The notes beneath the pieces are model-generated. The model saw only the letters and a list, made by a program, of their open reading frames with translations, made no database searches and had not been told where the DNA came from. From NCBI GenBank assembly GCA_019096065.1, contig JAGUCH010000003.1, positions 806,001 through 870,000 of the forward strand: DNA of 64,000 nt, in the 5' to 3' direction. Source of the stretch: Paracyclopina nana. Lineage: Eukaryota > Arthropoda > Copepoda > Cyclopoida > Cyclopettidae. This document shows positions 4,903-33,242 of this stretch, piece after piece. The position numbers and the translations under genes were made by a program. The first letter of the stretch is position 1; each line of letters begins with the position of its first letter.

Positions 4903-5515
4903 TGCTCTGCGACACTGTGCCTTTACTCTGCACCTAAAGCCAGGGCCAACTCCAACTCTAAGCGGAGGCACTCGAGTCTAGCAAATATCTCAATCCTCTG
5001 TAGAATCACTCTGGTCGGGACTGAGCCTGATGGCATATATACAATGTTTTTGGGTAGACAGAGTACCAATCCTCCAAATCAGCACCACCATAAGGAGGAA
5101 GTGGCAGTGCCCAGCACTTGTCCTCCCACCAATGTGTTCCAAATCACTCCAACTGAGAAAGCCCTAGGCTTAACCCAGCTTCCTACATTCACTAAGGAGC
5201 TCTGCAGGTTCTACCTCTTAGAATATAGTATAGCTAGTCTCAGTACATAATCCATTTATTCAAGCAGAGCCAGGAATAAAGTTGTCACAGAAAGAGCCCC
5301 TCTATTGCAGGAGGGTACGTTGACTGTCTGACACCCTCTTCGTGACTCTTCCAGTCTCGCTCCTCTCCTCCGCGCGTCCCATCGCTCGTCTCCGTCAGCC
5401 GCGGCCCCATACCAGCCTTCCATAGGTAAACTTGTGTGCGCCGCCAGTTTAAGCTCTAGCCATATGCCGTCTTCTTTCTTGCGGTTTTTTAGGGAGGGCA
5501 AGTAAGCGTCCTCCA
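4903..5515 (-). repeat. 3' LTR of giant element
   Basis: 613 bp. By eye it is identical to 32630-33242. It starts TGCTCTGCGAC and ends GCGTCCTCCA on the plus strand. On the minus strand it has an AATAAA at about 5253-5258 (plus-strand TTTATT), a plausible polyadenylation signal. Confidence 0.9.
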
Positions 5516-5531
5516 TTTACCCCCGCCCCAG
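5516..5531 (-). other. Polypurine tract of giant element
   Basis: On the minus strand the bases immediately before the 3' LTR read GGGGCGGGGGTAAA. This is a purine-rich tract in the expected position for plus-strand DNA priming. Confidence 0.65.
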
Positions 5532-5639
5532 AAAAAGCAGCTAATGCCTCGATAAATTTGAAAGCATTAGATGAACCCTCTGAGACCAGATGATAAAGGT
5601 GGAACCCACACATACTCTTTTAACTGAATCATAAAAGTT

Positions 5640-7577
5640 CTACACATTAGGGGCATCAGCAATAAACTTGCCTGCCTCTTCATTGTTACGACGAGAAGTA
5701 TTCCTATTTTTAGGCTTCCGCCTAGGTAATGACTTCCTTAATTGATTGGCCAAGACATATTGTCCTTCTCCAATCTCCATATAGCAGCAATAACACATTC
5801 GTTTCCTCTTGATATACATGATGACCAATAAGGCTATTGCACATGTAGATCCAAGTAAAGAAGTAGTAAGCACTACCCGCCAATCATCAAATATATCATC
5901 ATCATCCTGTTCCGGATACTTAACAACAAACTTGTTTAAGTCTGTCTCCCATGGGCTATGAAAGTCACCAATTATCTGTCCATCAACATTAATACCACAA
6001 AGACTTGTCACTTTATACGATCCAATAATTAGCAAATGAGCATTATTGAAGGTACCCTGGCAAGTCCTGTTAACAAATGTAGGCGTAACCACATTAACAA
6101 TACCAGCATGTTTTGGGCAGTTTGTGTTCAGTAACTCATTTGAAGACACATCCACCAGATTACATGCTTTATCCGGACTCAAAGTTGACAATCCAAAGAG
6201 AGCTTTGGCACAGTTAATTTGGGCCTCATCAGGTACATAAGCTGGATCATGGCAAACACTCTGTCCATCATGCTCAAAACAATCATTGTATTGGGGCAAA
6301 TGTTCAGTAGCATACATCAGTTCACCAAATTTTGTCACATAGGTCTCCTTTATGGTGTACCCACCATATGTGCGACCTTTTAATTGATAAGTCAATTCCA
6401 TATTATCACTAATACCTTTGACCCTCATTTTGCCACCAACAATAGCATCATTTGGGTCTACAGTATTTTCCACGACAGTAAAGGAGACAGGAGCCAAAGC
6501 CTTCTGCTCGAGCTCAGCACCTCGATCCCCTTGTACTTCAGTATTCAAGGGCATTATGAATTTGTCATGGTTTCTCCTGATATCTTTTGCAAAAGAAGCA
6601 ATAGTACCAATGACATCCATCATCTGCATAAAGTCACTAGTCCTAGTCCCGTGCAATTTTCTTGAGTGTTGTAATTGCCGGAGTAATGCAACTGCATTTT
6701 CCACTACATGTGGCAAATGTAATTTGATAGCAGTTTTAATCTTATCATTCTGGAACACCTTGGATGCTCCTGAAGTCACCATGATTTTTAAGGCATTAAC
6801 TGCCTTTTTAATCACCGATGTTTCCTTATTGATTAAGGCAACTCTGTCTTGTAACTCCCATTGTTCTCCCTCTATAGTTGGAGATGGGAACTTCACAAAA
6901 TGTCGCACACACATCATACCATCCACTATTGCTTCAGTGGGTGGATACAGTGAAAACACGGCAGGTGATTGGGAAAAGTCAAGTATAAATGTAGGAAAAC
7001 CTGCAAGTATCTTCGGAGTATTAGTACTGGTACTCGGTTGGCCCGGAGTATTTTTAGTTGGGTCCAACACTGGGAGACCATGGTGTACTATTTTTGCATC
7101 CAAGGTCGTTACCAACCCATAAACTTGTGTAGCTTTTACACTCACTTTCCATTTATTTTTCGATCCCTTCACAGAATCCACCAGATTGGCCACTTGTAAA
7201 AAATCATATTTTGACCTTGGCTCAAATCCTTCAAATCCAGGCAGTGACTCTTTGCATGTTTTGTCCATGTCAGTAGGGCTCACATCTCGTAACAGAGCAA
7301 GCACCTTACCTTCAAAAGTCACATAAGGAACATTAGTCAAGTTGACTGGCCCTAGATTGGCCATCATCTCTTCCACATCATTAACAACAGTACTTAAGGC
7401 CTCCTTATACTCATGTGCATCAATCACTTCAGTAGAAATCACCTCTTTAGTGTGATACAATGAGCGAATCGGGTCCAGCATATGATCTTCAAAACATAAC
7501 GGTCCGACATTGTCTTGCACAAATGCAAGACCAATTGTAAAGAAAAGTTTCACAAAGAAAAGTCTCACACAGAACAT
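5640..7577 (-). CDS. Envelope-like type I membrane glycoprotein of the giant element
   Basis: 645 aa from the ATG at 7577; the reading frame stays open upstream to 7685. I chose 7577 because it gives a signal peptide (MFCVRLFFVKLFFTIGLAF) and is the first ATG after a TATA+initiator promoter at 7639-7604. The long ectodomain has N-glycosylation sequons and scattered cysteines (a cluster at about residues 455-555). One membrane span follows an acidic DDDD patch near the C-terminus (SLLGSTCAIALLVIMY), then a basic tail with a Cys pair. The position next to the 3' LTR is the classic env slot. I do not recognise the glycoprotein family. Entry or fusion function is an inference from topology and position only. 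The frame is intact. Confidence 0.65.
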   Translation of the reverse strand: MFCVRLFFVKLFFTIGLAFVQDNVGPLCFEDHMLDPIRSLYHTKEVISTEVIDAHEYKEALSTVVNDVEEMMANLGPVNLTNVPYVTFEGKVLALLRDVSPTDMDKTCKESLPGFEGFEPRSKYDFLQVANLVDSVKGSKNKWKVSVKATQVYGLVTTLDAKIVHHGLPVLDPTKNTPGQPSTSTNTPKILAGFPTFILDFSQSPAVFSLYPPTEAIVDGMMCVRHFVKFPSPTIEGEQWELQDRVALINKETSVIKKAVNALKIMVTSGASKVFQNDKIKTAIKLHLPHVVENAVALLRQLQHSRKLHGTRTSDFMQMMDVIGTIASFAKDIRRNHDKFIMPLNTEVQGDRGAELEQKALAPVSFTVVENTVDPNDAIVGGKMRVKGISDNMELTYQLKGRTYGGYTIKETYVTKFGELMYATEHLPQYNDCFEHDGQSVCHDPAYVPDEAQINCAKALFGLSTLSPDKACNLVDVSSNELLNTNCPKHAGIVNVVTPTFVNRTCQGTFNNAHLLIIGSYKVTSLCGINVDGQIIGDFHSPWETDLNKFVVKYPEQDDDDIFDDWRVVLTTSLLGSTCAIALLVIMYIKRKRMCYCCYMEIGEGQYVLANQLRKSLPRRKPKNRNTSRRNNEEAGKFIADAPNV

Positions 7578-7603
7578 GTTTTTTACTCGTTGTCTAGTCC
7601 CAG

Positions 7604-7639
7604 ACTGAGCATGAACTAACCAATGTACTACAATATATA
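7604..7639 (-). promoter_or_regulatory. TATA + initiator core promoter for the envelope-like gene
   Basis: The minus strand has TATATATT (7639-7632) followed by TCAGTC with the A at 7606. Measured from TATATT, the spacing is 31 bp. The predicted transcript starts 29 bases before the ATG at 7577 and excludes the upstream methionines, consistent with a dedicated mRNA rather than a spliced LTR transcript. Confidence 0.6.
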
Positions 7640-7851: not shown

Positions 7852-9189
7852 TTACTCAATTGCATCAGGCATAACATTTTCAAGCAAAATCTGCAAGGCC
7901 TCCTCGATTTGAGCCTTTTTTGCGGAATCTTGCTTCATAACACTATCCAACTTTTTAAGGTTGGCACTTAAAGGGACTGTAGAATTCCCTTCACTAGATC
8001 CAGATCGAGGCCGTTTAGCAGGGCCTTGATTCACTACTTTAGCATAACTCAAGGATGGGGTCACCTCCTTGAATTTATTCAATTTACGTCGAGCTGCCCT
8101 CCTTTCCAAGAAGGCTGCATCAGCTTCAGTTTTGGCACCATTTGTAAAAAATGATGCCTTAGGAAAATGCTTCTCCAGTTTGGATATAAATTCCGCCTTT
8201 TCACCGGCATGGGAAAGGGACATGTTAACCTTAAGAGGTATGGCTGTGGGAACCACTTGCACACCATCTGCGGCAAAAAAATCACCCATGCTGCACACGT
8301 ACAGGGTGCACGCAACCGAACAGTAGTCAAGGTAACAGTTCACATTCTCGTACGACTTATCCAAAGCCACAGTAAAGTTGACTGTATTCCCTTGAACCCA
8401 AGTCACCAAACCAACCAAGGGCTTCTTGGTAGTTCGATAAAGGGACGAGCCCACCACATAAGAGGACACTGCTCCAGTGCCCTTCAACGGACAAAACACT
8501 TCCAATGGAGTGGGTTGAGTCACATCTCCCACATTAATCAAAGGCAAAGTGTTCATCTTCAAATATAGGACTACGTTTAACAGTCCCACCTTACAGGAAT
8601 TGAACTTGATGGACATCCCCGACCGATTGTGGACCTTGATGGGCCTCATAGCAGTCGGAGTCACCATGGCTTGATTATCAATGAAGACAGTATAGTCCAC
8701 TTGCCCCAATGATGAGCAGGACTCACGTGGCTTGACCTTCTTGAGAAGAAAGTCATCGCACGCTAGTTGGTTTTTAGACCGCAAATCTGCCAATATTGGC
8801 ATCCACTTAGCTTGCTTGTCAGGGAAAAGCTGACCAACCAAATCCATCAAAGGCAGGGTGTAACCAAGCTCACAAGCCTCGGCCACCAACTTCTCCTGCT
8901 CAGTCAAGACAACGTCCTGCAAAGGTGCAACAGCTGGGGGAGGAGGTATCTCCGCACCAACTTCCATTGGACCTGGACCCGCTTGGCCTTGGTCCACTAT
9001 CATTCCAGCAACATTGGCAACTTCTCCAGTAGAGGCTTCTGGAGCGGCCTTTTCCATGTCAGAAGGCTCTGTTTTAGGAGAGCCGGGCAAAGCATCCACC
9101 ACAAGAGTTTGGGATGAGGACTTTTTTCCTTTCCCCTTTCCCTTCCTGCGGCTGTCATTAACGGTTAAACTAGCAAAGTTGAAGTCCAT
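7852..9189 (-). CDS. 445-aa basic protein of unknown family carried by the giant element
   Basis: Unrecognised. The N-terminus has a Lys/Gly/Arg-rich stretch (RRKGKGKGKK at about residues 14-23) and then a Pro/Ala/Glu-rich linker to about residue 95. A central segment, about 150-320, is rich in Val, Leu, Tyr and Cys and looks like a beta-rich globular domain. The C-terminal third has a second basic patch (ERRAARRKLNKFKE), an NLS-like AKRPRSG and a short helical end. A positively charged flexible arm plus a beta-rich core would suit a nucleic-acid-binding structural protein, but that is inference. Its own TATA+initiator lies just upstream (9260-9229), and the ATG is 40 bases past the predicted start site. 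The next ORF downstream is the envelope-like gene. Confidence 0.6.
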   Translation of the reverse strand: MDFNFASLTVNDSRRKGKGKGKKSSSQTLVVDALPGSPKTEPSDMEKAAPEASTGEVANVAGMIVDQGQAGPGPMEVGAEIPPPPAVAPLQDVVLTEQEKLVAEACELGYTLPLMDLVGQLFPDKQAKWMPILADLRSKNQLACDDFLLKKVKPRESCSSLGQVDYTVFIDNQAMVTPTAMRPIKVHNRSGMSIKFNSCKVGLLNVVLYLKMNTLPLINVGDVTQPTPLEVFCPLKGTGAVSSYVVGSSLYRTTKKPLVGLVTWVQGNTVNFTVALDKSYENVNCYLDYCSVACTLYVCSMGDFFAADGVQVVPTAIPLKVNMSLSHAGEKAEFISKLEKHFPKASFFTNGAKTEADAAFLERRAARRKLNKFKEVTPSLSYAKVVNQGPAKRPRSGSSEGNSTVPLSANLKKLDSVMKQDSAKKAQIEEALQILLENVMPDAIE

Positions 9190-9224: not shown

Positions 9225-9260
9225 CAACTGACTACAACATTTTTTCCTCGAGCATTTATA
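9225..9260 (-). promoter_or_regulatory. TATA + initiator core promoter for the 445-aa gene
   Basis: The minus strand has TATAAAT (9260-9254) and TCAGTTG with the A at 9229, exactly 31 bp apart, then the ATG at 9189. This is the same architecture as the envelope-like gene promoter. The antisense spliced gene starts on the other strand at 9676, so 9190-9675 is probably a bidirectional control region. Confidence 0.65.
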
Positions 9261-9675: not shown

Positions 9676-10554
9676 ATGTATTTTTGGGTGCCTCAGCAAA
9701 CCAGCCCTGTAGTGGGTAACTCATCAATGGTCCCCACCCTTGCATCGGAAGACGACAAGGTGGTTTCCAATGAGCCCATAACAGAGACCACTCTTATTCA
9801 GGTAAGACAAAGTCTATAATAAAATTATCATATGGTCACAATGCATTCCCACATTCACAGGGAGTGTCCAACAGCGGAGTAAACCTCACTTTGGTTTCCA
9901 TGCAAGAGTCTCCAACTGGAGACTTTAATATGACCGATCATTCTCAAATGGAGAATGATTCTCAGGCCCAATCAAATGTGACACTGTCACAGCAAGACTC
10001 TCAAAGAGGATTCATGGATGACCTGGCCTTGCGCTTCCACAGCATGGACTTTCTATCCATTATGTGGACCACTGCAGCCTTTTGCACTCTTGTGGTGAGT
10101 TCCATTCCCCATGAATTTCATACTTTCATGAAAAGACTAATATATCCATTTCCAGCTATGCCTTATTGGCATTGGATTTGGCCTATGGAAATTGTTCAGG
10201 GTCTGTCAGACCTGTCACAGACGACGGTCTGGCCAGCAACAGTGGAGCATGTTGCTCGGAGAAAGAAGAGTCCCTAATGAGTATAATGCACCTCCCATCA
10301 TGCCTCTAGAAGAGGTTCCTGGGGGCGGCGGTGGGACTCCCATTCCATTGTTACGCACCCACAATCAAACTCAGATTAATCCCTTTCAAGTGGATTCCAA
10401 TGGTTTGATTTGTGGCATGAGCCCAGATATTTGGGCCACAGCTGTGGCTCGTGAGGTCCTCAGGAGGGCTTCAGCGTTTCCGCAGCCTCATCATCAACAG
10501 CCTCAAGGAACTCGCAACAGTTCTTTGGAGAGCTTCCAATCCATTCCTCTTTGA
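9676..10554 (+). CDS. Antisense three-exon gene: small glycosylated single-pass membrane protein
   Basis: Exons 9676-9801, 9861-10094 and 10156-10554, with introns of 59 and 61 bp (gtaaga..ttcacag and gtgagt..tttccag), both in phase 0. The product is 252 aa. The strongest support is that joining exons 2 and 3 completes one hydrophobic span of about 25 residues (about 106-131: ..FCTLV/LCLIGIGFG..). Upstream are four N-glycosylation sequons (NSS, NLT, NMT, NVT) and no signal peptide. Downstream is a Cys- and Arg-containing juxtamembrane tail, then a Pro/Gly-rich cytoplasmic region. A type III topology (N outside) is inferred. It runs opposite to gag-pol and the envelope-like gene, so its introns are safe from splicing of the genomic RNA. 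A weak TATA-like TTTAAA at 9567 and ACAGT at 9594-9598 may be its promoter. Family unknown. Confidence 0.65.
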
Positions 10555-12089: not shown

Positions 12090-13202
12090 TCACCACTTTT
12101 GGCGGTGTAACCTGTATAAATCATCATAAGTGACATTTAACTTTTTCATGGGCTTGATTAGCTCATCATTAGTAGCATCAAAACCCATATTAGTGAGAAA
12201 AGTAACATAATCATCAGGAGTTCCGATTTTCCTGTTATCTTTGTACTTTTGCAAGTTTTTGAAATAAAGTTTAGCAGCAGGTTCTTCAAGGGGTTTTCCC
12301 TTTGACAAATGCTCCTTGAGAAAAATCTGGTCATTGCGAGGAAGGTCATTTACTCGCTTATTTCCAGGTTGGTAAACCAGCCTTTCAGTGTAAGGTCTAT
12401 TTTGTCGATAATTTACACGAGGCAAATTACGAAGTTGCATGCCATGTTTTGGAGGTGTAACAGGTTCATGCATAGGTGAAAAACTTTCTTCCTCTCCAAC
12501 AATGCTATCCTCCGCATATGTTGGAGTGGCAACATTCTCAAAGATCTCTTCAATCGGATCATTGTTTTCCATATCCTCAGGCAAAACTTCAAGATAATCC
12601 GGAGCCAACTTTAATTCAGCTCCAATGGATGATTGTCTTGGTTCATTAGACATCCGATAAAGATGTATTAAACTTTCACGAGTAGCAGGTGAAAAACGAT
12701 GAGAATCTGCAAAGTTTTTGTCCAAGTGAGTTAGGAAATCCTGCTCACTCTCAAATACTTTGAAGTCCTCTGACAGCCTCAAATGGCCCAAAGATGTACC
12801 TACACCAGAGAGGTCATCGTCAAAATAATCTGTATTAATCTTATTTGCAAGGTCTTGAATTTCCTTATCAAGATTTTTTGATGGAGATTCCAACTTTGAA
12901 ACCACATCATCGATTACAGAATAAGATTCATCAAGAGACAGGTTAGAAGCAATGCTGTTGCCAGCATCACGTCTGCCACGGAAAGCTCTACCAATAGGGC
13001 TTGGTATTTCAGGTAAAGAATAATTAGAAGTATCATGGACTGGGGTAGATCCAGCTTCTGGTGGATCAGCTGGCAGTCCACTTCGAGCACTAGCTAATTC
13101 ATCAAAACCAACTGTATCAATGTCCTCATAGATATGAGATCCAGATCCAGATGATGTTACATTACCAGATGCGCTACATAAGGTGAGGCATAAACAGGAG
13201 AT
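12090..13202 (-). CDS. ORF downstream of pol in the -1 frame (giant element)
   Basis: Open from 13202 to the stop at 12090 (about 370 codons), overlapping the last 15 codons of pol in the -1 frame. It could be reached by a -1 frameshift, although I see no canonical slippery heptamer in the overlap; the first internal start is near 12905. The N-terminal half is acidic and Ser-rich. The C-terminal part (LPRVNYRQNRPYTERLVY, LPRNDQIFLKEHLSKG, then a Tyr/Lys-rich end) looks like a small folded domain that I do not recognise. It may be a C-terminal extension of the polyprotein or a separate product. Intact as far as can be seen. Confidence 0.45.
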   Translation of the reverse strand: MSCLCLTLCSASGNVTSSGSGSHIYEDIDTVGFDELASARSGLPADPPEAGSTPVHDTSNYSLPEIPSPIGRAFRGRRDAGNSIASNLSLDESYSVIDDVVSKLESPSKNLDKEIQDLANKINTDYFDDDLSGVGTSLGHLRLSEDFKVFESEQDFLTHLDKNFADSHRFSPATRESLIHLYRMSNEPRQSSIGAELKLAPDYLEVLPEDMENNDPIEEIFENVATPTYAEDSIVGEEESFSPMHEPVTPPKHGMQLRNLPRVNYRQNRPYTERLVYQPGNKRVNDLPRNDQIFLKEHLSKGKPLEEPAAKLYFKNLQKYKDNRKIGTPDDYVTFLTNMGFDATNDELIKPMKKLNVTYDDLYRLHRQKW

Positions 13203-16200
13203 TCAAGCTGCCCAACCTCAACCTTGTTGTCTATTGGCAGCTGATATTGCATACTTAATTGGTCATTAACCGGCTGGACCGTAACAGGCTCTAAAGGTGA
13301 AAGTGCAGGAGGATCTTGGCTAAGCGCCTTTGCGGGCAATTGTTCACCTGGATCCTCATTTCCAACTTTAGATACATTTCTATTATCTTTTGTATACTGT
13401 TTCCAATCTTCCAGAATCATAGCCTTATTTTCAGCTTGAATCCGGAGCACATCGTCAGGCTTAAACATATTAATAGTTTTCTTCACCAATGTGGACTGAG
13501 TCCTATGGTGTGTTTGTAAACTATGATGTGTTGAAACACCAGTTGAAGATGTAGTAGTAACTAAATCTTCATTAATGGAGGCTGTACCTTCCTTTTCAGG
13601 CTTATTGCGCAAATTATAAGATTTTACGCTACCATCAACAGATTCCAGAAAATGCAGGATTTCTCCTCTAGAATACTTTGCTTTTAATTCACTAGGTGAA
13701 TAAGTTCGCATTAAAAGTTTAGTAACTTTCTCGGGCAAGAATTGATACAATTTGTGAAATCTATAAATCTTGAGCTGGCTGAAATGAAATCGACGTTCAC
13801 CTCCAGTGCCCAGATAAGGTTTCACATATACATGAGTATTATGTATTCGAACAACTTCATATAGCTCTTTTAAGAACTTGTAGGAATGTTTAGACCCAGG
13901 TAGGTCCTTTACATAGCAAAAACTTCCCACTTCAGGCTGAAGTGATAAGCGTTCAGTAGCTTTCATGATAGCGAGTTTTTCCCGTTCCTCTTTATCATGT
14001 TCCTTTATAATCTCTTGCCAATTAATCTGATATAGTTTTTCATGAGTTTCATCCAAAATGTCGAGTACATCCTGACCAAGGTAATGAACAGGAGCCCTTG
14101 ACAAAAACAAAGAAAAAGGGGTAGGAATGACCTTAACCCCATTTTTATCAGTATAACTCAGTGATGTCAAAGGACGATGATTCAGAGAGTATACTGTTAA
14201 CTTGAATATTTCACTCATAGGCTTATTGTAAGTCTTTGCGTTTAATATTAACGCATTTCGTAAAAACTTAATGCTGCCTTCAGCATATACGTTACTGTGG
14301 ACATGCGGGCTGGTTGTGTACATGCCTACTGGGTGGACCCCATAAGTTTCAATCAACTTTTGTAGCGCATGATTAGGTAACAACTGACTCCCATTATCAC
14401 TTACAAGCACCTTAGGACGCCCAAAGGCACTAAAAATATCTTCCATTGCTTCAGCTACATGCACATATTTCGTGCTTAGTAAGGGCCGAGCAATAATAAG
14501 CTTAGAATAAATATCTACCATTACAAGACAATTTGTTGCATCTTGGCCTTTTATCAGAGTTTCCCGAAAAGAAGCCAAGTCCAGCATTGCAAGGTCAAAA
14601 GGCTTAGATGGGAGAGGAAATCTTCCTGTCCCTAAAAACCTAGTATTAGACTGCCTGTAAAGTGCACAGTGTACACAGGCTCCAATAATTACTCTGCTCA
14701 CTTTTGCTGAGTAAGTTGAATACATAGTCTGGGTAAAGATCAAATGTGTCTTTTTACTCCCCAAATGGTTATGCAAGAGGTGTATTATAGCCATAAGATA
14801 CACACAGTTAGGTAATGACATATACACCTTTGTATTAGAGGGTGTCGTAAAGGGTAACTTTACATTTTTCCTTACGACTAGTAAGGAAGCATCTAAAACA
14901 CGATATTTGCTCATAAACTCTGTTGGAATAGAGTTTCGATCAGCCATCATCATGACATTAATTATTTTTTGAGTCTCCTCACACCTTGATTGGAGTCGGA
15001 GAATCAAATTTCTGGTAATTCCAGGCAAGTTAGGCGAAATATTGAATTTCACATTCACACCTGCCACAGATACCACATTTTCTACTAAATTCACACATGA
15101 ATTACGTGTGAGTTCATCAACACTAGAATATGCATCCACATCTTCGGACTTGCTATCCACAAGTATGGAAGCATTATCATCATAACAAAATGGAGGATTT
15201 TCACCAATAAGTTCCACCCATTTATCATTTAAACAATCCAATCGCTTTTTTAATAGCGACTTGGACATAGTTCCACTATTAACCAAAGTATCATAAACAT
15301 GTGTAAGAAGCTCTTGGGTTGTCAAGATACCTTTGGCTATATGCTCAGGAAGAGGGTATTTACCATTATAAATATCCTTAGTAATTTGCGAACTTATTGA
15401 ATAAGGTGCAAAAAATAAGGTTTCACCATCAGTTTGATGATACTTATTTAGTAACACATCTACCACTTCTATTTCAGTACGAGGCACTGCTCGTAATTTC
15501 CATGAAAATGGCAGAGAATAAAGTCGGGCTGCAAGCCTATTTGTATAAGCATCTTTCCCTGTGAATGAGCTTGCTAATACGCTTGCAATTGCCAAACAGT
15601 CAGTTACAATAACTACTCTCTCATAAGCATACAAGAGACGTTTAAAATGAGTGACCATCATAATAATTCCTAGGGCTTCCCTTTGGAAACTATGATAAGA
15701 CAAGCACACACTTAATTGAAATCTTGCAGAATGCGCTCCGATGCACATAGCTTTGCCATCAGCGCCAATCTCCATAATTAAAGCAGATGTAGATATTACA
15801 CCTGAATCAACTATTAAGAAACATTCTTCATAAGAAGGCATTGCAAGAGATAATCCATTTTGAATTTCCTCTAATACCTTATAAAAACATTTTTCTTGAA
15901 AAGGTGTGAAGATAAACCTCCCGGTTTTTCCTTCTTTAGTAGCAAATACATCCAGCATAGGGCTAGTAAATGTTGCCATACTGGGACAGTACTGGCTCAA
16001 CCAATTTGCCATTCCTAAAAACTTTTGCAATTGCTTGCGAGTTTTAGGTATTGGATAATCCTTAAATGATGTGCGATACTTTTCCGGCATACACATAAGG
16101 AGAACACCATGTTCATCAATTGTTAATTGATGTCCAAGCACAATCATTTCTTTAACAGCTATTTTTGTCTTTTTAATTGCAAGTAGGGCATTTAATTTCC

Positions 16201-16811: not shown

Positions 16812-16813
16812 GA

Positions 16814-16831: not shown

Positions 16832-16948
16832 CTGTGATTTCATCACTCCACTACCCATTAAGTACATCCTGCCGGAAGCTATAAGTGCTAAGTATACACG
16901 ATAAGTATAAAAGGGATAATAGTGCTGCTCAAATAATATCATGCTCGA

Positions 16949-23028: not shown

Positions 23029-23187
23029 CAGACGAATGAGCAGCACAACAAAAAGACGGCCGCAAAATTTTGGGGGCCCCCCTAAGTATACTTTGAAAAT
23101 TCTGCGGCTTGAAAGAAAGCGCAATTAATAAAGAAATAATAGCAGCACAAACCGGCAGGTGTACAATAATGAGGCAGCATGTCAACA

Positions 23188-23211
23188 CGTTTCCTTTACT
23201 CTCTTTTCCAG
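23188..23211 (+). promoter_or_regulatory. Candidate 3' splice site for env mRNA
   Basis: A pyrimidine-rich run (cgtttcctttactctcttttccag) ends in AG at 23210-23211, five bases before the env ATG at 23217. This suggests that env is translated from a spliced subgenomic RNA. The donor is not certain. Confidence 0.55.
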
Positions 23212-23216
23212 AAGCA

Positions 23217-25544
23217 ATGTACTTCACAATACTGATGACGTTCACACTACTACTCGAGGTGCCAAGCGCACAACCCCGGCCTCAACCTGCTCTACAGGAA
23301 GGAGGAGACGGACCACCTGAAGACCCGGCTGCCACCTTCACGGTGTTTGACTGCGAGTCACCAAAATCAACCCACGAGAGCGTCGACTTGAATGACCCGG
23401 ACGAATGCGATGATATCGGCACCACCTATGAATCGGCTGTCAACATCACCGTGCAGGTGCTGCAGACTGCGACGACCAAACCCGTCGCCGCCCACCGTTG
23501 CCACGTGACCCTGACCCGCGAAGTGACCAGATGCGGGTTCGACAGCGTCAGCTATGGGACTCAGATCGTTGCTTACCACCAGCCCTATACCGTGTCGCCC
23601 CAGGCCTGCCGCAAGGCGGTGGAACGGGGCTATCTGATCGTCGAGGGCCAACGGGTAAATGTGACCCTCAACGTGCCCGCCAACCTGGCTTACTTCTCTC
23701 GAGGAGGTCTTGACGGAGACCACCGATGCAGGACCATGTCATTCAGCCACAACGGTGTCATGTATCACCGCTCTTACGAGCAGACCCGGATCGACGCCCT
23801 TGTCACCGCTGTCTATGGAAAACTGCACACCAGCTCTGGACGAGTGGTGTTCGATAATCACATCGTGGCCAACTACCGGGACAAGATCGTCCACGACACG
23901 CTCGAAGGCACCATGGTATGGGAAGCTCATGACACCACCTGCATGGAAGAGACCTCTGAGGTCTATCAAGGGCCCGCTTCACTATACCCGCACCAGAACT
24001 CCACCATGCTAGGTCAGGTGGGGGATCTGCTCCTGATTGCCCGCGAAGAGGAATCCAGGTACGCAGGATTTGTCCTTAAGGGGGTCCAGTCGACCTGCCA
24101 GCGGCGGGTCTTCCGGACTCAGCTGAGGGACTTTGCAGTCGTCCTTCTCCGCCCGGGCGAGGCTCCCATCGCCGCGTCGACCCACCTGACGGAAGAGGTC
24201 CACCACGCTCACGTGCAAACCCAACTGGCTTTCCTGCACGCCGAGCACGCCCTGCATCTCGACGACCGGTTCAAATTCCTGCAGGACCTCATCTGCAAGA
24301 ATGAGCGGAGCATCCTGCACACCAAGCTGCAGGACATGGCCAGCGGTGGGTCCTCCTACGCCACGCTTGACTCCCACGGGCCCGGCCATTTGGTCACCCG
24401 GGCTGGGGCGGTCGCCTACATCACCAGCTGCTACCCGATGCAGGCCATGACGCGTGCCTTCCCTAACTGCACGCAGGAGATCCCCGTGTTGGTCGGGAAC
24501 CACTCCCGGTTCGCGGATCCCCTCTCCTTCATCTTGGTGGACCGGCCCAGCATCATACCCTGCGACGCCATCACGCCTGTGAAGTGGAGGATCCAGGGAC
24601 ACTGGATGTGTGCGACTCCTAGCATCCACTCCTGCACGCCGCCATCGCAATTGGACCCCACCTCCGATCGACAACATGGACGCCCCTACGAGATCGGTCG
24701 GGGCCTAGGAGGCGGTATCTACTCCGCCCAGCAGCAGGCCGAGCACGCCCTCTACCTGCAGCTGTACCACGCGCGCGAGGCCGTGGTCACCACTCTGACG
24801 TCCAACGTCCTGAGGAACAGCTTCGCACGCGGATCGGGGGCCACCACCCTCTGGTCCGAGGACGACATCGACATGATGGTTGACCAGGTGGGCAACGCCC
24901 TCATCCCCTTCTTTTCGACCGTGGGGAAATACTGGAGCTACATGACCGGAGGTTTGGTGATCCTGGGCCTCATCAAGATCATCCTAGGCTCTATCATCCG
25001 TATGATTATCCTGTATCGCCGCCGGGGACTGGGGTGGTGGTTGATGTATGGCCTGTGGCACACTGCCTTCATGGCTGTCGAACTCCCCTGGCGCATGGTA
25101 GCCAACCTGGGTAACGACGGACCCTTGTTCCCTGGCGACGACGATGAGGATGATGGCCACCCGGATTTCCGGCGCCGACCTCGCTGGAAGCGAGACCACC
25201 GAGAACGAGCGGCCACCGAGCTCAGTGACTTCACTGTGCAAGATGGTTCGGAAACGGGAGAGAAAGACCCTTTGGATGCTCCAGACAAGTCGACATCGCC
25301 CCTCAAGGCTCTCCGCCGGTGGACGCGGCCCGACAAGGAGACCCAAGCATATCAGGACCTCCAAGCCCAGATCCGTACGATTCACCAGCAATACACGGAT
25401 CTATACGGGGTCCTTCAGCAGACCCTTCCCCAGGCACGCGGGGTTGACGCGAATGGGACCCAGCCCAGCGCTCCCGCCATGGAGGGTCCCCCTCGAGGCT
25501 CCCTGCTAGACCTGACTCAATCCGTCACTGCGAGGACACAGTAA
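23217..25544 (+). CDS. env: Envelope glycoprotein of nested element, mononegavirus (chuvirus-like) type
   Basis: 775 aa from the ATG at 23217, which gives a signal peptide (MYFTILMTFTLLLEVPSA). The frame is open from 23109. The ectodomain begins with a VFDCESP segment and has many cysteines and NxT/S sequons. A later part has the arrangement SCYP.., IPVLVGN, a Pro-led hydrophobic strand, IPCDAITPV and GHWMCATPSI. That is the pattern I associate with glycoproteins of Jingchuvirales/Chuviridae-like viruses, which are known to have been captured by LTR elements in arthropods. Near residue 620 there is a membrane span (GGLVILGLIKIILGSIIRMI) and a second hydrophobic stretch, then a basic/acidic tail. 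The frame appears intact. Family assignment is recognition by eye, not a search; a membrane-fusion role is inferred. Confidence 0.65.
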   Translation: MYFTILMTFTLLLEVPSAQPRPQPALQEGGDGPPEDPAATFTVFDCESPKSTHESVDLNDPDECDDIGTTYESAVNITVQVLQTATTKPVAAHRCHVTLTREVTRCGFDSVSYGTQIVAYHQPYTVSPQACRKAVERGYLIVEGQRVNVTLNVPANLAYFSRGGLDGDHRCRTMSFSHNGVMYHRSYEQTRIDALVTAVYGKLHTSSGRVVFDNHIVANYRDKIVHDTLEGTMVWEAHDTTCMEETSEVYQGPASLYPHQNSTMLGQVGDLLLIAREEESRYAGFVLKGVQSTCQRRVFRTQLRDFAVVLLRPGEAPIAASTHLTEEVHHAHVQTQLAFLHAEHALHLDDRFKFLQDLICKNERSILHTKLQDMASGGSSYATLDSHGPGHLVTRAGAVAYITSCYPMQAMTRAFPNCTQEIPVLVGNHSRFADPLSFILVDRPSIIPCDAITPVKWRIQGHWMCATPSIHSCTPPSQLDPTSDRQHGRPYEIGRGLGGGIYSAQQQAEHALYLQLYHAREAVVTTLTSNVLRNSFARGSGATTLWSEDDIDMMVDQVGNALIPFFSTVGKYWSYMTGGLVILGLIKIILGSIIRMIILYRRRGLGWWLMYGLWHTAFMAVELPWRMVANLGNDGPLFPGDDDEDDGHPDFRRRPRWKRDHRERAATELSDFTVQDGSETGEKDPLDAPDKSTSPLKALRRWTRPDKETQAYQDLQAQIRTIHQQYTDLYGVLQQTLPQARGVDANGTQPSAPAMEGPPRGSLLDLTQSVTARTQ

Positions 25545-25562
25545 CCTTCTAGCGTGGGGTGA

Positions 25563-25807
25563 TGTAGCAGGGAGCGTGTCGGCCTACGGGTCGACCGCTC
25601 GCTGCGCGCGCTCGCCTCGGGCGCGCGGTAGTATACCGAGTAGTATAGTGTGATCATCAGTAAAGGAAATAAATTCACCGCATTGACACGTGTTGTCTGC
25701 GGCCCAAAGACTGACCTCTGCTAGCCTCCAGGCCCGTCCCCGCTTGACGTAGCCTAGATACGAGTAGTGGCTTGATAAGTCACAGTAGTATATCTCGACC
25801 TACTACA
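25563..25807 (+). repeat. 3' LTR of nested element
   Basis: 245 bp; matches 16567-16811 except C at 25636. Preceded by a short purine-rich GTGGGGTGA. Followed by the GAGT duplication at 25808-25811. Confidence 0.9.
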
Positions 25808-27555
25808 GAGTCCAATGGAGGAACCATATGTTCAGATGTATTAAAAATCAAGTTACGATTAAATGCAGTGAGGTCAACCAATAACCTTGGTTTCCTTTCT
25901 TTGTAAGGTAATTGTGCATCATTGGGACGCGAAGTAAGAAAACAAGGACTGGCTGAATATTTATTCAGAGACTTGTCCACAACTTCAATCAAGCCTGAAG
26001 ACAACATCAAAGCTATTTTTCTATCAAGTAAAGCAGTAGCATCCTGCCCCATATTAAATAGCTTTGGTACTAGAGGAGTGTCATCTTTTAATTGAAATTT
26101 AATAGGCTCATTTGCCCATAAGCGAAAGTTTCTCGGATCCTCACTTAGAATATCTGAGTACTCAAATAACACCTTTCTGTATTCAGACCGTATTTCCTCT
26201 GGTATATGGTCCAAATCGAACTCATTCAATGTCTTTTCCCTAATTGGGATAACATATCCATTGATTCCATTCATAACCTTGGATGAGCTAAACTCGCTTG
26301 GATAGCTCAACAAAAGGTTGTAAACTTCATCATATAATTCCTGATTATTTGCTTCATCTTGGGTATATTCAAGATGGGCAGAAACAAGGTCCAAATCAGA
26401 AGTATCACGTAATATTGTTTGTCGATATCGGTGATCTTCTATCTGGCCTTCAAATACATTTGTGTGCGACTTAGGAGGAACATACTCATCATTCAATTTC
26501 CCCAAGCACACTGCACAACCACAAAGCTCAGGATTGTACCTGAAGCTTTTGAAAGTATACTGTGTTTTAATATCATTAGAAACACTAGGATGGGGATAAA
26601 AAGCCAGTGCTGAGAGGAGAGTAAGTGCAGCTGAGACTGCAAAACAAACCGGCTCTGTAGCACAGGGCTCTGCGTCCATTAATGTTTTAATCAAAACTTT
26701 ACTACCACTACCCTTGAACCTCAGTTGGCCAAGTATGGTATATACTAATGTAGCAATATACCCCCAATGGGTACGCCGGTTTACATCAACATGCACAATA
26801 ATATTGATATTATTGGCTAATTTATACATTATCAATGGTGATCCATTTAAATTCAATTCATAAAATGGAGCATCAATATTTCGTTTATACACAAAGCCAA
26901 AGTTCTCATACTTTTCATGCATGATTATTAGCTCAATATATTCATACCCTTCCAGATATGTGTCTATTGGGCACAACCCAATGCTAAGACACTCTGGACA
27001 GGTGTTATTAAACTTCATCCATGCAATAGTTAGCTGTTTTACTAATTTATTGCAGTGGCATAAAATACGTTTTTGTTCTCCAGCTAACATAACTCCAAAT
27101 GGAAGTAAGAAAACCCACTTCTTAGTTTGGAGGTTATGCTTAGTAAGAAATTCACCAATATAGTTATCAGTTACCTCTTTAAATGAATCAGATTGATTAG
27201 AGGCAACAAACACAAAATTATCGATGCATGACATTTTTGGCCTTGTTTGCCCAGTCATTGGTTTATACTCACCAAATACATGGTGATTAGAAAATGTAAG
27301 CCCATTTATGTCGGTAAATTGGGCTATAATGTTATTCTTGTCATTTACATAATTACAATAGCACTGCGAGTCATCAGCCTTTATTGACCTGATGCTAAAA
27401 TTCAACTCATGAACTTTGGAAGTGCTACGATAATTCGTTTTAGAAACTACCTTAGCAGTTCCTACCACAGTAATGGCATCAAGCCTAAACGGCATATCGG
27501 ATTTATTTCCAATCATGATGGGAAAGGATCCATGCCTATCAATTAAGCTAACATT
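25808..27555 (-). pseudogene. pol: Giant element pol, N-terminal part (pre-RT region and RT fingers), cut by nested insertion
   Basis: In the same frame as the protease ORF upstream and separated from it by one TGA (27558-27556). The first internal start is at 27516. About 350 residues of unrecognised sequence, including a short hydrophobic segment (PVCFAVSAALTLLSALAFY), precede the RT start. The RT start has EYSDILSEDPRNFRLW, a fingers region, and a KPRLLVDLTAFNRNL motif equivalent to the DYR-LN motif of Gypsy RTs. The gene then runs into the 3' LTR of the nested element at 25807 and resumes at 16566 and below. Confidence 0.75.
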
Positions 27556-28794
27556 TCACATAGATGACACACCTTCAAAGTCATCAGAAGGAACAAATTC
27601 TACACATTTGCCATGGAAGTTTGTATAAACATTTCCTTCGCTGTCTAAGTTGTCAGGAGTATCATCTTCCTCATCAGAAGAATCCAATTCAGGGATTAGA
27701 GGCGCTTCATGCACAAAATGTGCATTAACAACCTTTTCTTCACCTGGTAATAATGAAATACTAGCAGTTATTGCCACAGGGTAAAAATCCTCTCCAGATA
27801 AGGTTAAGGGTATCTTTTTGTACTTAGGTTTTCCAGGAAAGTCAAGAAAATATTTTCCTTGTCTGCTGGTTAACCTTACATCATTATCGACAAAAAGTGC
27901 ATTGCCGATTAACATTAAAGGTTCACAATTAGTCAAAATAAATGTTGCCTTCCTAACAAGCATATTTGACCCAATTATCAATTGTATGTCAACTGCTTCT
28001 GTGGAAGGTACATTTTCTCCACTAAAATTCTTTATAATATAATTTTGATGAACCCTAGGTAGTTTGTGCCCTAGTTTTCTCTCAATTATATTCAACAAAG
28101 TATATGACATGACTTGGATCATTGACCCAGAATCAAACAGAGCATGAAGTCTAACTGGTCCTGGAGTTTTCACTGGTATGAAAAATCTCTCTTGCAGACC
28201 CGTTAGTCTCATAGAATGAACACTCATGGTATCGTCGTCACATGTGGTTTCAAGCTGTGAAGTTTCACTTTGTTTTTCCACAAGCAATTCTGAAACATAT
28301 GCCACATTTTCTTGGCAGCTAGCTTCAGATTTTAAATCACCGTCATGGTGGGAAAGTAATTTGGCTTCACAATCATTATCTGTCGTAATTTCATGTGAAC
28401 CATCCATTTCAACTTCCTTTGTTGGAGGTTGATCGAGCATAGTAATAATTCCTACAGCAATACTTGCTAACGCTAGTTTATTTGGTAGCGACAACATAAA
28501 TATAGCTGGCAGTGCTGCTGCGCCCAAAGCACCATAAAATAGATATTTATTTATTTGTATGGTGTCACATTTTTCAGGTTGAACCTTTACCTCATCACAT
28601 TTAACTGTAATGGGTTCACTTTTTTCATCAACATAATGACATAGTGCATTGACTTCATCATCATTATTCAAATGGGCTTTGGCTAATTGTCTCAATTTTG
28701 CCTTATGCTCCAAAACACTAAAGCTGGCTTTGCCAACTTCTTTATTACAAATACCCCTCATAAATGAGGGAAGTTCATAGCTTTTTTCCGCCAT
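27556..28794 (-). CDS. Retroviral-type aspartic protease protein of giant element, with membrane segment
   Basis: 412 aa. Its ATG follows the gag stop directly (TAA ATG) and is in the same frame as gag. It ends at a TGA, after which pol continues in the same frame. A strong hydrophobic region lies at residues about 83-120 (LFYGALGAAALPAIFML and ALASIAVGIITML). The protease active-site motif LFDSGS is at residues 220-224, with hydrophobic flap-like blocks after it, and the tail is acidic. The product could be made by stop readthrough from gag or by termination-reinitiation. A membrane-anchored protease is unusual for this class of element. Confidence 0.7.
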   Translation of the reverse strand: MAEKSYELPSFMRGICNKEVGKASFSVLEHKAKLRQLAKAHLNNDDEVNALCHYVDEKSEPITVKCDEVKVQPEKCDTIQINKYLFYGALGAAALPAIFMLSLPNKLALASIAVGIITMLDQPPTKEVEMDGSHEITTDNDCEAKLLSHHDGDLKSEASCQENVAYVSELLVEKQSETSQLETTCDDDTMSVHSMRLTGLQERFFIPVKTPGPVRLHALFDSGSMIQVMSYTLLNIIERKLGHKLPRVHQNYIIKNFSGENVPSTEAVDIQLIIGSNMLVRKATFILTNCEPLMLIGNALFVDNDVRLTSRQGKYFLDFPGKPKYKKIPLTLSGEDFYPVAITASISLLPGEEKVVNAHFVHEAPLIPELDSSDEEDDTPDNLDSEGNVYTNFHGKCVEFVPSDDFEGVSSM

Positions 28795-31338
28795 TTATTT
28801 CTTAATAGATGGTTCTTTACGTCCTGGTTTATTTTTCCAGCAATCCAAACCATCCATGGCCTTATGCAGGCCACCACAAATATCACAACAAGTTCCATCA
28901 GCTCTTGCTGCGCTAAAGGGCATATTCACATAGTGAGGACAATCCTTGGCAATATGTGAAGCCTCATTGCAAAATATACAAGTGCCCGTTATCCAGGGGC
29001 CATATTTCTTACCAGCTGCTCCAGCAGCATTAACTACATTTTTCCCAGCTTTTTGCCGGTCATTTGGTACTTGCATAGCAGCAATTTTTGCATTTTGTAA
29101 CTCATGTGTCTGTTTTAATATGGTCTCAACCATTTCTGCAGACACACTCACTTTGGAGCTATTTGAAGCTCTAGATGTACTAGAAATAACACTGCCAACC
29201 TGACTGACTGAGTCTTCAGGATAGACATCAATGGCAGCAATTTTTGCTTTACGTCCAATATCAGGGAGAACAGGAAGCCTATGGTCACGAGCTCCTCTTT
29301 GATCCTTTTCTTTTTCAGGATCCTTTCTCGAGGAGCGCACATGGGACTGAACCACAAGTTTATTAACAACATTAATAAATGCGTTGTAAGCCTCAGCACT
29401 TCCTGCTGAGATGCCCTTTTCAAAGCATAATGTGTCAAACTCACGTAAGACCGCAGTGTACACATATGGATAGTGCATCTGGATGAATGCCATTCCATTA
29501 TTAATGGTGTTAGCGAAACATGTGTCGTCAGATCCCAAGGAACCCTTAGCTTCAAACAACTTGGTTTCAAGTTCCATGAGAGTACCCATGACTGAATAGA
29601 AGTTTTTAGTCTTATCAGCAATGGTTTCATGAATTTTGCGTTGGACAGCTCCAACATCAATGACCATTTGATGTCCCATTTGAATGTAGTCCCAAATGGT
29701 TGATAACCTTTGGTTTCGAGACCACATTAAACGGAGACGATCAGCAGTCCTTTCAGTTGATAAAGAACAAAGCACATGCATAGTAGCTTGATGTGCCCAG
29801 TTGTTTGTCACGGCTGCATTGTAAATTGCAGTCAAAAAGATATTAACAAATGTAGCACTGTGTGACTGATCGACATTGAAATAATTATTTCTTTGTGATT
29901 TGAGCACATTCCTTATATCACTGTGGGAAGGTTGTAAAACTGACCCATCAGGAGGAAGGCTCACATACAGTGCATGCAATGAAATGTCCATTGAGGACCT
30001 ATTTGCATCTTGAGCAGACTCATTTAAGGCTTTCAAGCCATAATTGGTCTCTGCTAAAATGACACGCAATTTTGCATCTAAACCAGGATCCCCTTGGAGA
30101 TATCCAAGGATACCTTTCATTTCATTAACTTGCTCAGCGTGAGTGAGTCGAGGGTTAATCACCTGAGATATAGCCCTCTTGGCTGACTCAATGCTGGTAA
30201 TTTCCTCTGTATTCACTCGAGCAACTTTTTCACTAAATGACAGGTTGTGGGCTGAAGCCACATCCTGTTTCTTTGTACGATCACGAAAACCAGACACAAT
30301 ACCCATAATTTTTGACTCAATGTGTTTTCGTCTCATATCAAGCATATCTCCTGGAAATATGTCATGTAATTCATTTATCTGAGTAATAATGCGTTCAGCG
30401 GTTTTGCTATCAAAACGTTTTGCAAAATAAGCAAATACCCGCTGTTCCTCATCAGCGCTCAGATCATCTCCATTGTACAACTTTTTTATTATGATGGAAT
30501 CATTAAGTGATGCAGCTTTTGATCCTGTGGTGGTATCAAAACCTCCTGCATTACTCCTTTTATTCTCATCAATCATAGTACTAGCAAGCATGCCACCGAT
30601 TTGCGGTGGTCCCAAAATAGAAGACATATTACCAAAGTGGACAGATTTGGAGGCATTTTGCGATTGTTCCAAATTGTCAGACTCACTAACAGATTCATTT
30701 CCTGTGGAATCTAAACCAAGGTTGGCTGCATTTATTCCAAATAATGCAGCAACACTTGTCAAACTCTGGCTTCCAGGGCTCCATTGTGCCTCAGAATTGT
30801 TAAAACCATCAGCAATTGCCTTATACAGCTCCTCAAATTCAAACTCTGCACGTTTTGCAATACTTATCATGCCTGCAAAACGGTGGAGTCCAAAAGTCCC
30901 CAGAATCAATCCAGCAAGTATCAACAAGGGATTACTTTGCCGTGTTTTTTGAACCAGCTTAGTAATATACTTGAGTACCAGAATTACCATAAGATATGGA
31001 TTTGCAATATATTTCATCATGTTGGTGAAGATGACATCAATATGTTTTGTCACACTCACAGAAATTTCAGTAGAGACAGTGGAATCTCTAGATAATTGCA
31101 CATCAAGGGCTCTCATCCAAAGACCACCGACTGTGTCAGCATCAATTGAGGCCTTGACAATCGTTTCAGTCCAATTTAGAGCTGCAAGTCCTGCCTTGGT
31201 TTGGCTTGACAGCTCACTCACATTAAAAGTAAGAGTCTGGACTACAGCATCAATAGCTGCCTCCTCCAATCCAGTCACAGCAGACAAAATCACATACAAG
31301 GGGTTAACCTTGGCTTGCATATTTGTCGCCATTGCCAT
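28795..31338 (-). CDS. gag: Gag polyprotein of giant element (847 aa)
   Basis: The start at 31338 is the first ATG after the hairpin array. Two hydrophobic segments lie at about residues 114-126 and 137-160 (NPYLMVILVLKY and NPLLILAGLILGTFG). A long helical middle part follows. Two zinc-binding knuckles are at the C-terminus: CIFCNEASHIAKDC (about 787-800) and CDICGGLHKAMDGLDC (about 818-833). The length is well above the 300-600 aa usual for Gypsy Gag. Knuckles plus position after the leader identify it as Gag; the hydrophobic segments are unexplained. The stop TAA is followed at once by the ATG of the protease ORF in the same frame. Confidence 0.8.
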   Translation of the reverse strand: MAMATNMQAKVNPLYVILSAVTGLEEAAIDAVVQTLTFNVSELSSQTKAGLAALNWTETIVKASIDADTVGGLWMRALDVQLSRDSTVSTEISVSVTKHIDVIFTNMMKYIANPYLMVILVLKYITKLVQKTRQSNPLLILAGLILGTFGLHRFAGMISIAKRAEFEFEELYKAIADGFNNSEAQWSPGSQSLTSVAALFGINAANLGLDSTGNESVSESDNLEQSQNASKSVHFGNMSSILGPPQIGGMLASTMIDENKRSNAGGFDTTTGSKAASLNDSIIIKKLYNGDDLSADEEQRVFAYFAKRFDSKTAERIITQINELHDIFPGDMLDMRRKHIESKIMGIVSGFRDRTKKQDVASAHNLSFSEKVARVNTEEITSIESAKRAISQVINPRLTHAEQVNEMKGILGYLQGDPGLDAKLRVILAETNYGLKALNESAQDANRSSMDISLHALYVSLPPDGSVLQPSHSDIRNVLKSQRNNYFNVDQSHSATFVNIFLTAIYNAAVTNNWAHQATMHVLCSLSTERTADRLRLMWSRNQRLSTIWDYIQMGHQMVIDVGAVQRKIHETIADKTKNFYSVMGTLMELETKLFEAKGSLGSDDTCFANTINNGMAFIQMHYPYVYTAVLREFDTLCFEKGISAGSAEAYNAFINVVNKLVVQSHVRSSRKDPEKEKDQRGARDHRLPVLPDIGRKAKIAAIDVYPEDSVSQVGSVISSTSRASNSSKVSVSAEMVETILKQTHELQNAKIAAMQVPNDRQKAGKNVVNAAGAAGKKYGPWITGTCIFCNEASHIAKDCPHYVNMPFSAARADGTCCDICGGLHKAMDGLDCWKNKPGRKEPSIKK

Positions 31339-31547: not shown

Positions 31548-32608
31548 GAAACTTGGAAAGCAATTGGTTCTCAGGTTATGCAGACAGGCACAACCCAGAT
31601 GCTCTCCCCAACACGCTCACAACACGCTCACACAATCTCAAGCACACAAAGAACAGGGTTGCTGGCTCCCTTGGGAGCCTGTTTTGTTTAACCAGGTGGA
31701 CCTCTTGATGCTCCTGTCGACTAGTGCACCAAGGTAATCCAGATGTTGCGTGGGGGTTTTGAACAGAAACAGTTTTTGGAACCTCGTTCCCACCAAACTA
31801 CCAGCTGTTGTAGCAAGGTGAAAGATAAAAAACACTTATTGCGACCTGTACATGGACCAGTCTGATTACCAGTCCAAGGCCCTTCACTGACACTTGTTAA
31901 AATTGGTTCGCACTAAATTCACTGGCACACTATCACCTCTCTAATAGGTGATCTTCTCTTCCCAGTCCAGAAGCACAATGGTCGTAGCACTTCCTTCAAA
32001 CTTTTGGCCCACTGACTTTCTTTTCGCATCTGTGGCCTCCCAGATTAGCGTAAGGGTCGTCGTGCGATTGTCCAAGCCCTTATTAACTTTTAAATCCACT
32101 CGCCAAAGAGTCAGTGTTTGGTATAGCAAGAAGAGGGGGGAGGGCACCACTGCTCCGGAGCTACTAGACGTCCAAACGCTGGGATATGCGTTCTTTGTCT
32201 CTAATTTCGCCTCCTTGGACTTATGTGGTCTTCAAATATGTGCGCCAGTACCTGGTACCTTAAATTGCACACACACTTGGCAACGAGACGCTTTCTTCAG
32301 GTCGACCAAAAGGCGATGGTGTGCTGTCTCAAGGGGTGATCGAAGTTCTGACAACAATCGTCGCCATTTTATTTTCTCTTAACCGTACCACTTGCCTCTA
32401 CCCAACTCCACCTCTACTCCTCAAGTTTGCCCTGAATTGCTCTTCTCCGATCACTGTCCGATGGGTTGTAGGACTCACTTTACCTTTGCCGATCACCCAA
32501 AGGACCACGCACCGTCTTGTGCCAGACAATGATATCTTGAAATGATAGTCCTCTCACTTCTCACTCAATTGCCGATCGAGGGTGGGATCCCCGGATGCTT
32601 CTGCAGGG
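31548..32608 (-). other. Leader (untranslated) region of giant element
   Basis: About 1.1 kb between the PBS and the hairpin array. I see no supported ORF on either strand. It probably holds packaging and possibly splice signals. Notably long for such an element. Confidence 0.5.
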
Positions 32609-32629
32609 ATCCCGGTTGAGCCCCCAAAA
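32609..32629 (-). other. Primer-binding site of giant element
   Basis: On the minus strand, three bases after the 5' LTR end, the sequence reads TGGGGGCTCAACCGGGAT (32626 down to 32609). TGG matches the complement of the tRNA CCA end. The tRNA is not identified. Confidence 0.6.
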
Positions 32630-33242
32630 TGCTCTGCGACACTGTGCCTTTACTCTGCACCTAAAGCCAGGGCCAACTCCAACTCTAAGCGGAGGCACTC
32701 GAGTCTAGCAAATATCTCAATCCTCTGTAGAATCACTCTGGTCGGGACTGAGCCTGATGGCATATATACAATGTTTTTGGGTAGACAGAGTACCAATCCT
32801 CCAAATCAGCACCACCATAAGGAGGAAGTGGCAGTGCCCAGCACTTGTCCTCCCACCAATGTGTTCCAAATCACTCCAACTGAGAAAGCCCTAGGCTTAA
32901 CCCAGCTTCCTACATTCACTAAGGAGCTCTGCAGGTTCTACCTCTTAGAATATAGTATAGCTAGTCTCAGTACATAATCCATTTATTCAAGCAGAGCCAG
33001 GAATAAAGTTGTCACAGAAAGAGCCCCTCTATTGCAGGAGGGTACGTTGACTGTCTGACACCCTCTTCGTGACTCTTCCAGTCTCGCTCCTCTCCTCCGC
33101 GCGTCCCATCGCTCGTCTCCGTCAGCCGCGGCCCCATACCAGCCTTCCATAGGTAAACTTGTGTGCGCCGCCAGTTTAAGCTCTAGCCATATGCCGTCTT
33201 CTTTCTTGCGGTTTTTTAGGGAGGGCAAGTAAGCGTCCTCCA
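32630..33242 (-). repeat. 5' LTR of giant element
   Basis: 613 bp; I found no difference from the copy at 4903-5515. Flanked on the outside by ACGT (33243-33246). Contains TATATAT on the minus strand near 32765 with a TCAGTC about 20 bases later; the promoter position is uncertain. Confidence 0.9.

Follow-up and report, generated by a model that had tools for sequence, protein, structure and literature searches.

Long terminal repeat (LTR) elements are usually regarded as expressing their genes mainly from one LTR promoter. Foamy viruses have a second promoter inside the provirus, and viruses of the human T-cell leukaemia virus (HTLV) type encode a protein on the antisense strand. The HTLV antisense promoter is placed in the 3′ LTR, and the plant elements Grande, RIRE2 and Retand are reported to carry an antisense open reading frame (ORF) between pol and the 3′ LTR, the gene23 of Grande having its own promoter (PMC7264820). 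Also described are giant elements in plants (Ogre, up to 25 kb) and planarians (Burro, over 30 kb; PMC6431247), a forward-oriented membrane protein of 63–107 aa with a myristoylation motif, sORF2, in env-less elements of the Drosophila MDG1 group (PMC11952523), the spliced product CERV of Cer1 with a role in RNA export (PMC10309623), and extra ORFs in bdelloid elements, with ORF3 types DEDDy, GDSL and env (PMC5408684). Here, we studied a window of 64,000 nucleotides from the copepod Paracyclopina nana (assembly GCA_019096065.1, contig JAGUCH010000003.1, positions 806,001 to 870,000), in which an LTR element, hereafter the outer element, occupies positions 4903-33242 on the minus strand. Besides gag, protease and pol, it carries a gene for a 445-aa protein (445), an env-like gene (env) and a spliced antisense gene for a predicted membrane protein (AS1), and this gene plan recurs in four families of one genome.

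With env-bearing Ty3/gypsy elements (Metaviridae) such as the errantiviruses, the outer element has in common the LTRs, gag, the order protease-reverse transcriptase (RT)-RNase H-integrase, and an env-like third gene; it differs by two more conserved genes, one of them antisense and spliced, by internal promoter patterns, and by an env without a Pfam or PDB match. When compared, by description only, to Grande, RIRE2 and Retand, it is an animal element whose antisense gene is a spliced membrane gene lying head to head with 445, and it has env in addition. Ogre and Burro resemble it in size (16–30 kb) and extra coding capacity, and Burro also has an env-like region, but the extra domains of Burro form one huge polyprotein, whereas here separate genes lie on both strands. 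Given these giants, the size that the initial annotation had contrasted with a usual 5–12 kb is not unusual in itself. The likeness to foamy viruses and HTLV is one of layout; here, several internal promoter patterns and a spliced antisense membrane gene occur in one element. Cer1 with CERV and the bdelloid elements likewise have an extra fast-evolving protein besides gag-pol (PMC10309623, PMC5408684), but CERV is a spliced sense product and the bdelloid ORF3 proteins differ in kind. Our literature search, with Repbase and most subscription papers outside its scope, found among the top-ranked records no animal LTR element combining a conserved spliced antisense membrane gene with internal promoters.

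A two-strand gene plan shared by seven copies

The span of 28.3 kb includes a nested element of 9.24 kb, so that about 19.1 kb belongs to the outer element. This is the size given in the initial annotation, whose other boundary features (identical 613-bp LTRs, the ACGT duplication, a primer-binding site and a polypurine tract) were borne out as well. Both LTRs have TG...CA termini and are 100% alike over their full length. The gene order is LTR, gag, a stop codon, protease-pol, AS1 in antisense, 445, env and LTR; every gene named earlier is thus present, and the 445 protein, annotated as basic, is so only mildly (pI 8.6). The copy in the window is defective: its RT is interrupted by the nested insert, a stop codon lies in frame between the protease and RT parts, and the frame changes near the 3′ end of pol.

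A search of the genome with the LTR gave 23 matches, which comprise the 14 LTRs of seven paired copies, one solo LTR flanked by CAGG, and eight divergent or partial sequences. The paired copies (the one in the window and six more) are spread over six contigs, and six of them have a 4-bp duplication of their own, the seventh lacking the outer end of its 3′ LTR. The LTRs are identical in four pairs and one base apart in a fifth; one pair shows a small deletion, and one is truncated. This near-identity indicates that the insertions are recent. In all seven copies, AS1 lies antisense between pol and the 3′ LTR, and the 445 frame and AS1, the latter with GT-AG introns, are open in the same order; env is uninterrupted in four. 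No paired copy without the extra genes, the case that the initial annotation had named as speaking against it, was found among the seven.

Both 445 and AS1 are under purifying selection. Over 21 copy pairs, synonymous (dS) and nonsynonymous (dN) divergence amounted to 0.051 and 0.010 for 445 (dN/dS 0.20), and to 0.049 and 0.017 for AS1 (dN/dS 0.35), the low ratios foreseen for genuine genes of the element. The variable sites of 445 comprise 39 synonymous and 26 replacement changes (P=6e-9), and those of AS1 comprise 24 and 28, where the share expected to be synonymous is 0.25 (P=8e-4). Considered by exon, the predicted frame of AS1 gave P=0.005 for exon 3 and P=0.02 for exon 2, and 10 alternative frames of these two exons, a control without exon 1, gave P>=0.12. 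An 18-bp stretch of exon 2 is absent, in frame, from two of the seven copies. The divergence of non-coding sequence was 0.042 and 0.052 in the spacers flanking 445, 0.036 downstream of AS1, and 0.042 and 0.023 in the two introns.

Recurrence in three further families

When 445, env, gag, protease and pol were used as queries, the same genome yielded three more families, here called after a frame length the 458, 550 and 649 families. The candidates scored were 90 of 90 for 445, 65 of 123 for env, 53 of 121 for gag, 101 of 149 for protease and 41 of 424 for pol, and the counts are lower bounds. The pol of the 458 and 550 families is 58–61% identical to that of the window (best 41 of 424); in the 649 family, the protease is 38–42% identical to the window's, and its pol is not among the best 41 of 424. 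Between families, identity falls to 26–28% for gag, 22–27% for 445 and 27–31% for env. At 56 of at least 62 merged env places, the same strand carries a 445 homologue no more than 2.5 kb upstream (within 0.6 kb in 55), at least 56 of the 80 merged 445 places have a downstream env match, and 72 of the 83 protease places entered (best 101 of 149, with 18 fragments or weak rows of the 101 left out) have a 445 homologue 5–30 kb downstream.

The antisense genes were read in one copy of each further family, in the stretch upstream of 445. All three copies have such a gene, with a phase-0 intron inside the hydrophobic segment, whose ends read GTAAGT/TTACAG in the 458, GTAAGC/TTGCAG in the 550 and GTAAGT/TTGCAG in the 649 family; in the last, the intron was read by eye and the gene was recognised from the exons after the first. 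In the window, the second intron likewise cuts the transmembrane segment (GTGAGT/TTCCAG). Between the 458 and 550 families, the AS1 proteins show a mutual match, with E values of 7e-5 and 4e-6 from a small search run without composition correction. The 458, 550 and 649 families also have AS2, a further antisense ORF with identities of 71%, 50% and 44% between families, which encodes a hydrophobic and then a basic part; a counterpart was sought in the window and not found. The sense genes read as single frames, except for the 649-family 445 homologue (L074:3445-4001), which in the copy read occupies two frames, perhaps owing to decay, a frameshift site or an intron in the sense gene. In one 550-family copy, 4.3 kb downstream of pol contain no ORF above 100 aa. 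Two weak protease matches (22% identity, E=2e-7) were also seen within 2465-aa open frames at C1:8755653 and C4:5377311, perhaps a more distant family.

Beyond these families, the extra proteins gave next to no matches. Protein searches found no relative at E<=0.001 for 445 and env among 7993 and 7995 scored candidates, respectively, and none for AS1; PDB at E<=1 had no match for 445, env or gag. Pfam returned no domain for the antisense exons, chance-level hits for 445 relatives (DUF3736 in two of seven members, best E=0.03, and FUSC in one), and no family at E<=1 for env in any of the six members scanned, so that any tie of env to a known env or fusion family, including the errantivirus type, would be a distant one. 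Searches of viral contigs gave 4 and 82 pattern matches, none of which was confirmed. Two AlphaFold2 models computed without an alignment reached a mean pLDDT (predicted local distance difference test) of 36.6 and 35.0, and were therefore not used for a fold search.

Candidate promoters and alternative readings

Core promoter patterns were scored with a TATA + initiator matrix. Sites scoring >=16 number 10 in the whole window on both strands (128 kb of strand), six of them outside the outer element's own sequence. The two promoters proposed in the initial annotation are real as patterns and belong to 445 and env. The predicted 445 site lies 40 bp before the start codon and keeps the strict pattern in all seven copies; the env site lies 29 bp before the start codon, and its TATA stretch, looked for in four other copies, is exact in two, changed by one base in one and not found in one. 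Across the four families, such a site precedes 445 in three (not in the 550 family), env in three (not in the 458 family) and AS1 in one (the 550 family). Just before the start codon, the pattern is thus found in six of eight sense-gene cases and in one of four AS1 cases, and in all seven positive cases the first ATG, 9–65 nt past the predicted start (9–61 nt in the six sense cases), opens the frame of the gene.

Taken together, the data make it fairly likely, in our judgement, that the outer element is a recent, partly broken copy from a diverged Ty3/gypsy-like clade with a two-strand, multi-promoter plan, combining an LTR RNA, internal RNAs and the antisense AS1, and with surface roles for AS1 and Env. 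The more complex, multi-transcript plan of the initial annotation is supported by the seven copies and by the recurrence in three families, the transcripts themselves being putative. According to this scheme, Gag would be translated from a genomic RNA started at the LTR promoter, and so would Pro-Pol once a single in-frame stop has been passed; short RNAs from their own internal promoters would serve 445 and env, and AS1 (with AS2 in other families) would be transcribed from the opposite strand, divergently from 445, which is 486 bp away head to head in the window. The N-terminal ectodomain of AS1 may be glycosylated or mucin-like, and AS1 may work alongside Env on the surface of cells or particles during spread; 445 could be a nuclear or particle-associated accessory protein. 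In the window, AS1 starts with MYFW and has five N-glycosylation sites before the transmembrane segment; serine, threonine and proline make up half of the first 100 AS1 residues in the 550 family, a share of 0.30 in the 458 family and 0.28 in the window. Since they cannot be spliced out of the sense genomic RNA, the AS1 introns would come through reverse transcription intact. Finally, the fast divergence of AS1, Env, 445 and Gag as opposed to the conserved pol fits host-facing roles.

Several observations weigh against this interpretation. The scoring matrix is our own, built from consensus sequences, and sites at 28765 and 29348 (16.1 and 16.5) lie inside the element away from such starts. 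No convincing AS1 promoter was found in the window (P=0.20; P=0.09 in the LTR, which is not claimed), in the 458 family (P=0.19) or in the 649 family (P=0.12), and AS2 has a site in none of three families. No site precedes 445 in the 550 family (P=0.54), and the env promoter of the 458 family, predicted before scoring, failed (7.5, P=0.62); there, TATAAGG stands 62 bp before the start codon without a matching initiator. For the AS1 proteins of the window and the 649 family, even the best matches (E 0.1 and 0.03) are not significant, and the case for their homology is made by place, strand, layout and intron. Expression of 445, env and AS1 from transcripts of their own is read from the DNA sequence, and the suggested functions of 445, AS1 and Env from sequence features.

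The strongest competitor, which we still rate as rather unlikely, is that 445 and env are spliced products of an LTR-driven RNA and that the TATA + initiator pairs arose by chance or are of minor use. Such splicing is the usual route in retroviruses and env-bearing elements, and the pair is absent in two of the eight sense cases. For plant elements the route is also described in PMC7264820. Yet sites of this kind are rare, six of the eight sense cases have one shortly before the first ATG, and 445 is followed by an AATAAA of its own. A somewhat weaker contender takes AS1 for a small fusion protein serving particle-free spread between neighbouring cells. Like sORF2 (PMC11952523), AS1 is a single-pass protein with a juxtamembrane basic region, and it has cysteines as well; however, it is longer (252 aa), spliced and antisense, whereas the sORF2 candidates are all forward in that source, and an env-like ORF with a hydrophobic N-terminus and an anchor is retained beside it. 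The sORF2/FAST-like definition (63–107 aa, forward, myristoylation motif, no env) therefore does not describe AS1 and the outer element.

If AS1 encoded no protein, its plus-strand transcript could have a regulatory role in antisense or give rise to small RNAs, as non-coding antisense RNAs are known for LTR elements (PMC7264820), and the lack of any relative or Pfam domain would agree with this. We regard this as improbable in view of the open frame and intact splice sites in all seven copies, the in-frame 18-bp indel, a surplus of synonymous changes confined to the predicted frame, and the same architecture in three other families. Nothing was found in favour of an assembly artefact or of foreign genes captured just once, and both are refuted, for practical purposes, by the seven paired copies, which are spread over six contigs and in six cases have a 4-bp duplication of their own, as well as by the homologous gene sets of the other families.

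More tentatively, and with doubt slightly prevailing, the four families may form a family-level lineage of their own, made up of enveloped viruses or elements of small animals that replicate by reverse transcription. Its two-strand genome would join gag-pro-pol under the LTR promoter, accessory and env genes with internal promoters, and one or two spliced surface genes in antisense, whose introns would be spared because of their opposite orientation. If the two-strand, multi-promoter plan is true, a clade with about 80 protease loci (a lower bound) in a 92-Mb, 10-contig genome, with transcription units seemingly on both strands, would be a new coding solution, and nature would have arrived at the antisense-intron trick by itself. 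It would also offer a test case for the gain of viral features, with identity between families at 58–61% for pol (in the families scored), at 22–31% for gag, 445 and env, and mostly beyond detection for AS1.

Features, pol and genomic setting

Table 1. Features of the outer element and related sequences; positions refer to the window unless a stretch label is given.
Feature	Position	Strand	Remarks
5′ LTR	32630..33242	-	613 bp, TG...CA; matches the other LTR exactly; ACGT flank
Primer-binding site	32609..32626	-	TGG..., directly inside 5′ LTR; same stretch beside 5′ LTRs of other copies
gag	28795..31338	-	847 aa, CCHC knuckle; open in 5/7 copies
Protease ORF	27556..28794	-	412 aa, DSGS; same frame as gag, directly past gag stop
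pol, first part (up to RT)	25808..27555	-	interrupted by nested element
Nested LTR element	16567..25807	+	within outer RT, not part of outer element; LTR repeat; GAGT both sides
pol, second part	13157..16552	-	RT with YIDD, RNase H, integrase (HHCC, D-D-E)
pol, C-terminal end	12090..13202	-	different frame in window copy
AS1	9676..10554	+	exons 9676-9801, 9861-10094, 10156-10554; 252 aa, single-pass membrane protein (predicted)
445 core promoter pattern	9226..9260	-	TATAAAT...TCAGTT; predicted start 9229; score 21.0, best in window
445-aa gene	7852..9189	-	open in 7/7 copies; dN/dS 0.20
AATAAA	7816..7821	-	33 nt past last codon of 445; 7/7 copies
env core promoter pattern	7603..7639	-	TATATATT...TCAGTC; predicted start 7606; score 17.8, P=0.007
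env-like gene	5640..7577	-	645 aa; hydrophobic N-terminus, C-terminal anchor; uninterrupted in 4/7 copies
Polypurine tract	5516..5529	-	adjoins 3′ LTR; sequence read
3′ LTR	4903..5515	-	613 bp; identical to 5′ LTR; ACGT target duplication
AS2	L072:2578-2781, L073:1819-2025, L074:717-947	antisense	labels of stretches read in three families

At 28792-28800, the gag stop is immediately followed by an ATG in the same frame, a one-codon spacing that, taken from coordinates, is kept in all seven copies; the stop was identified as TAA in the window copy. It is probably passed by readthrough or re-initiation, judging from this arrangement. A second suppressed stop, between protease and RT, was considered but not retained, as the frame continues through that place in the other six copies; one of the seven has a single open protease-pol frame of 2488 aa. 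The domain order of the outer element (protease, then RT, RNase H and integrase) is Ty3/gypsy-like, and in PDB the best solved-structure match of pol was Ty3 (E=3e-13), with foamy and other retroviral chains ranking below. The protein search with pol found three relatives at E<=1e-10 among 7995 scored candidates, and the identity to the elements compared is only about 21–25%. In the best protein relative (Chrysemys picta, 25%), the integrase match precedes the RT match, which is the reverse of the order in the window.

The nested element contains a PNMA-like gag (PF14893, E=1e-7), a Ty3-type pol and a Monjiviricetes_fusion glycoprotein (PF24664, E=4e-72), and has a strong TATA + initiator site at 17670 with a score of 20.6. 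Neighbouring host genes are HAP1_N, Milton, an ecdysteroid-kinase-like gene and CDC20, a set that would suit an animal, probably an arthropod or another ecdysozoan. Between pol and the antisense gene, positions 11323-11822 hold three direct repeats, which are imperfect and each about 120 bp long. To the left of the element there is a tandem duplication of about 1.1 kb (2412-4269), a 79-bp part of which is found again just to the right (33734-33812).

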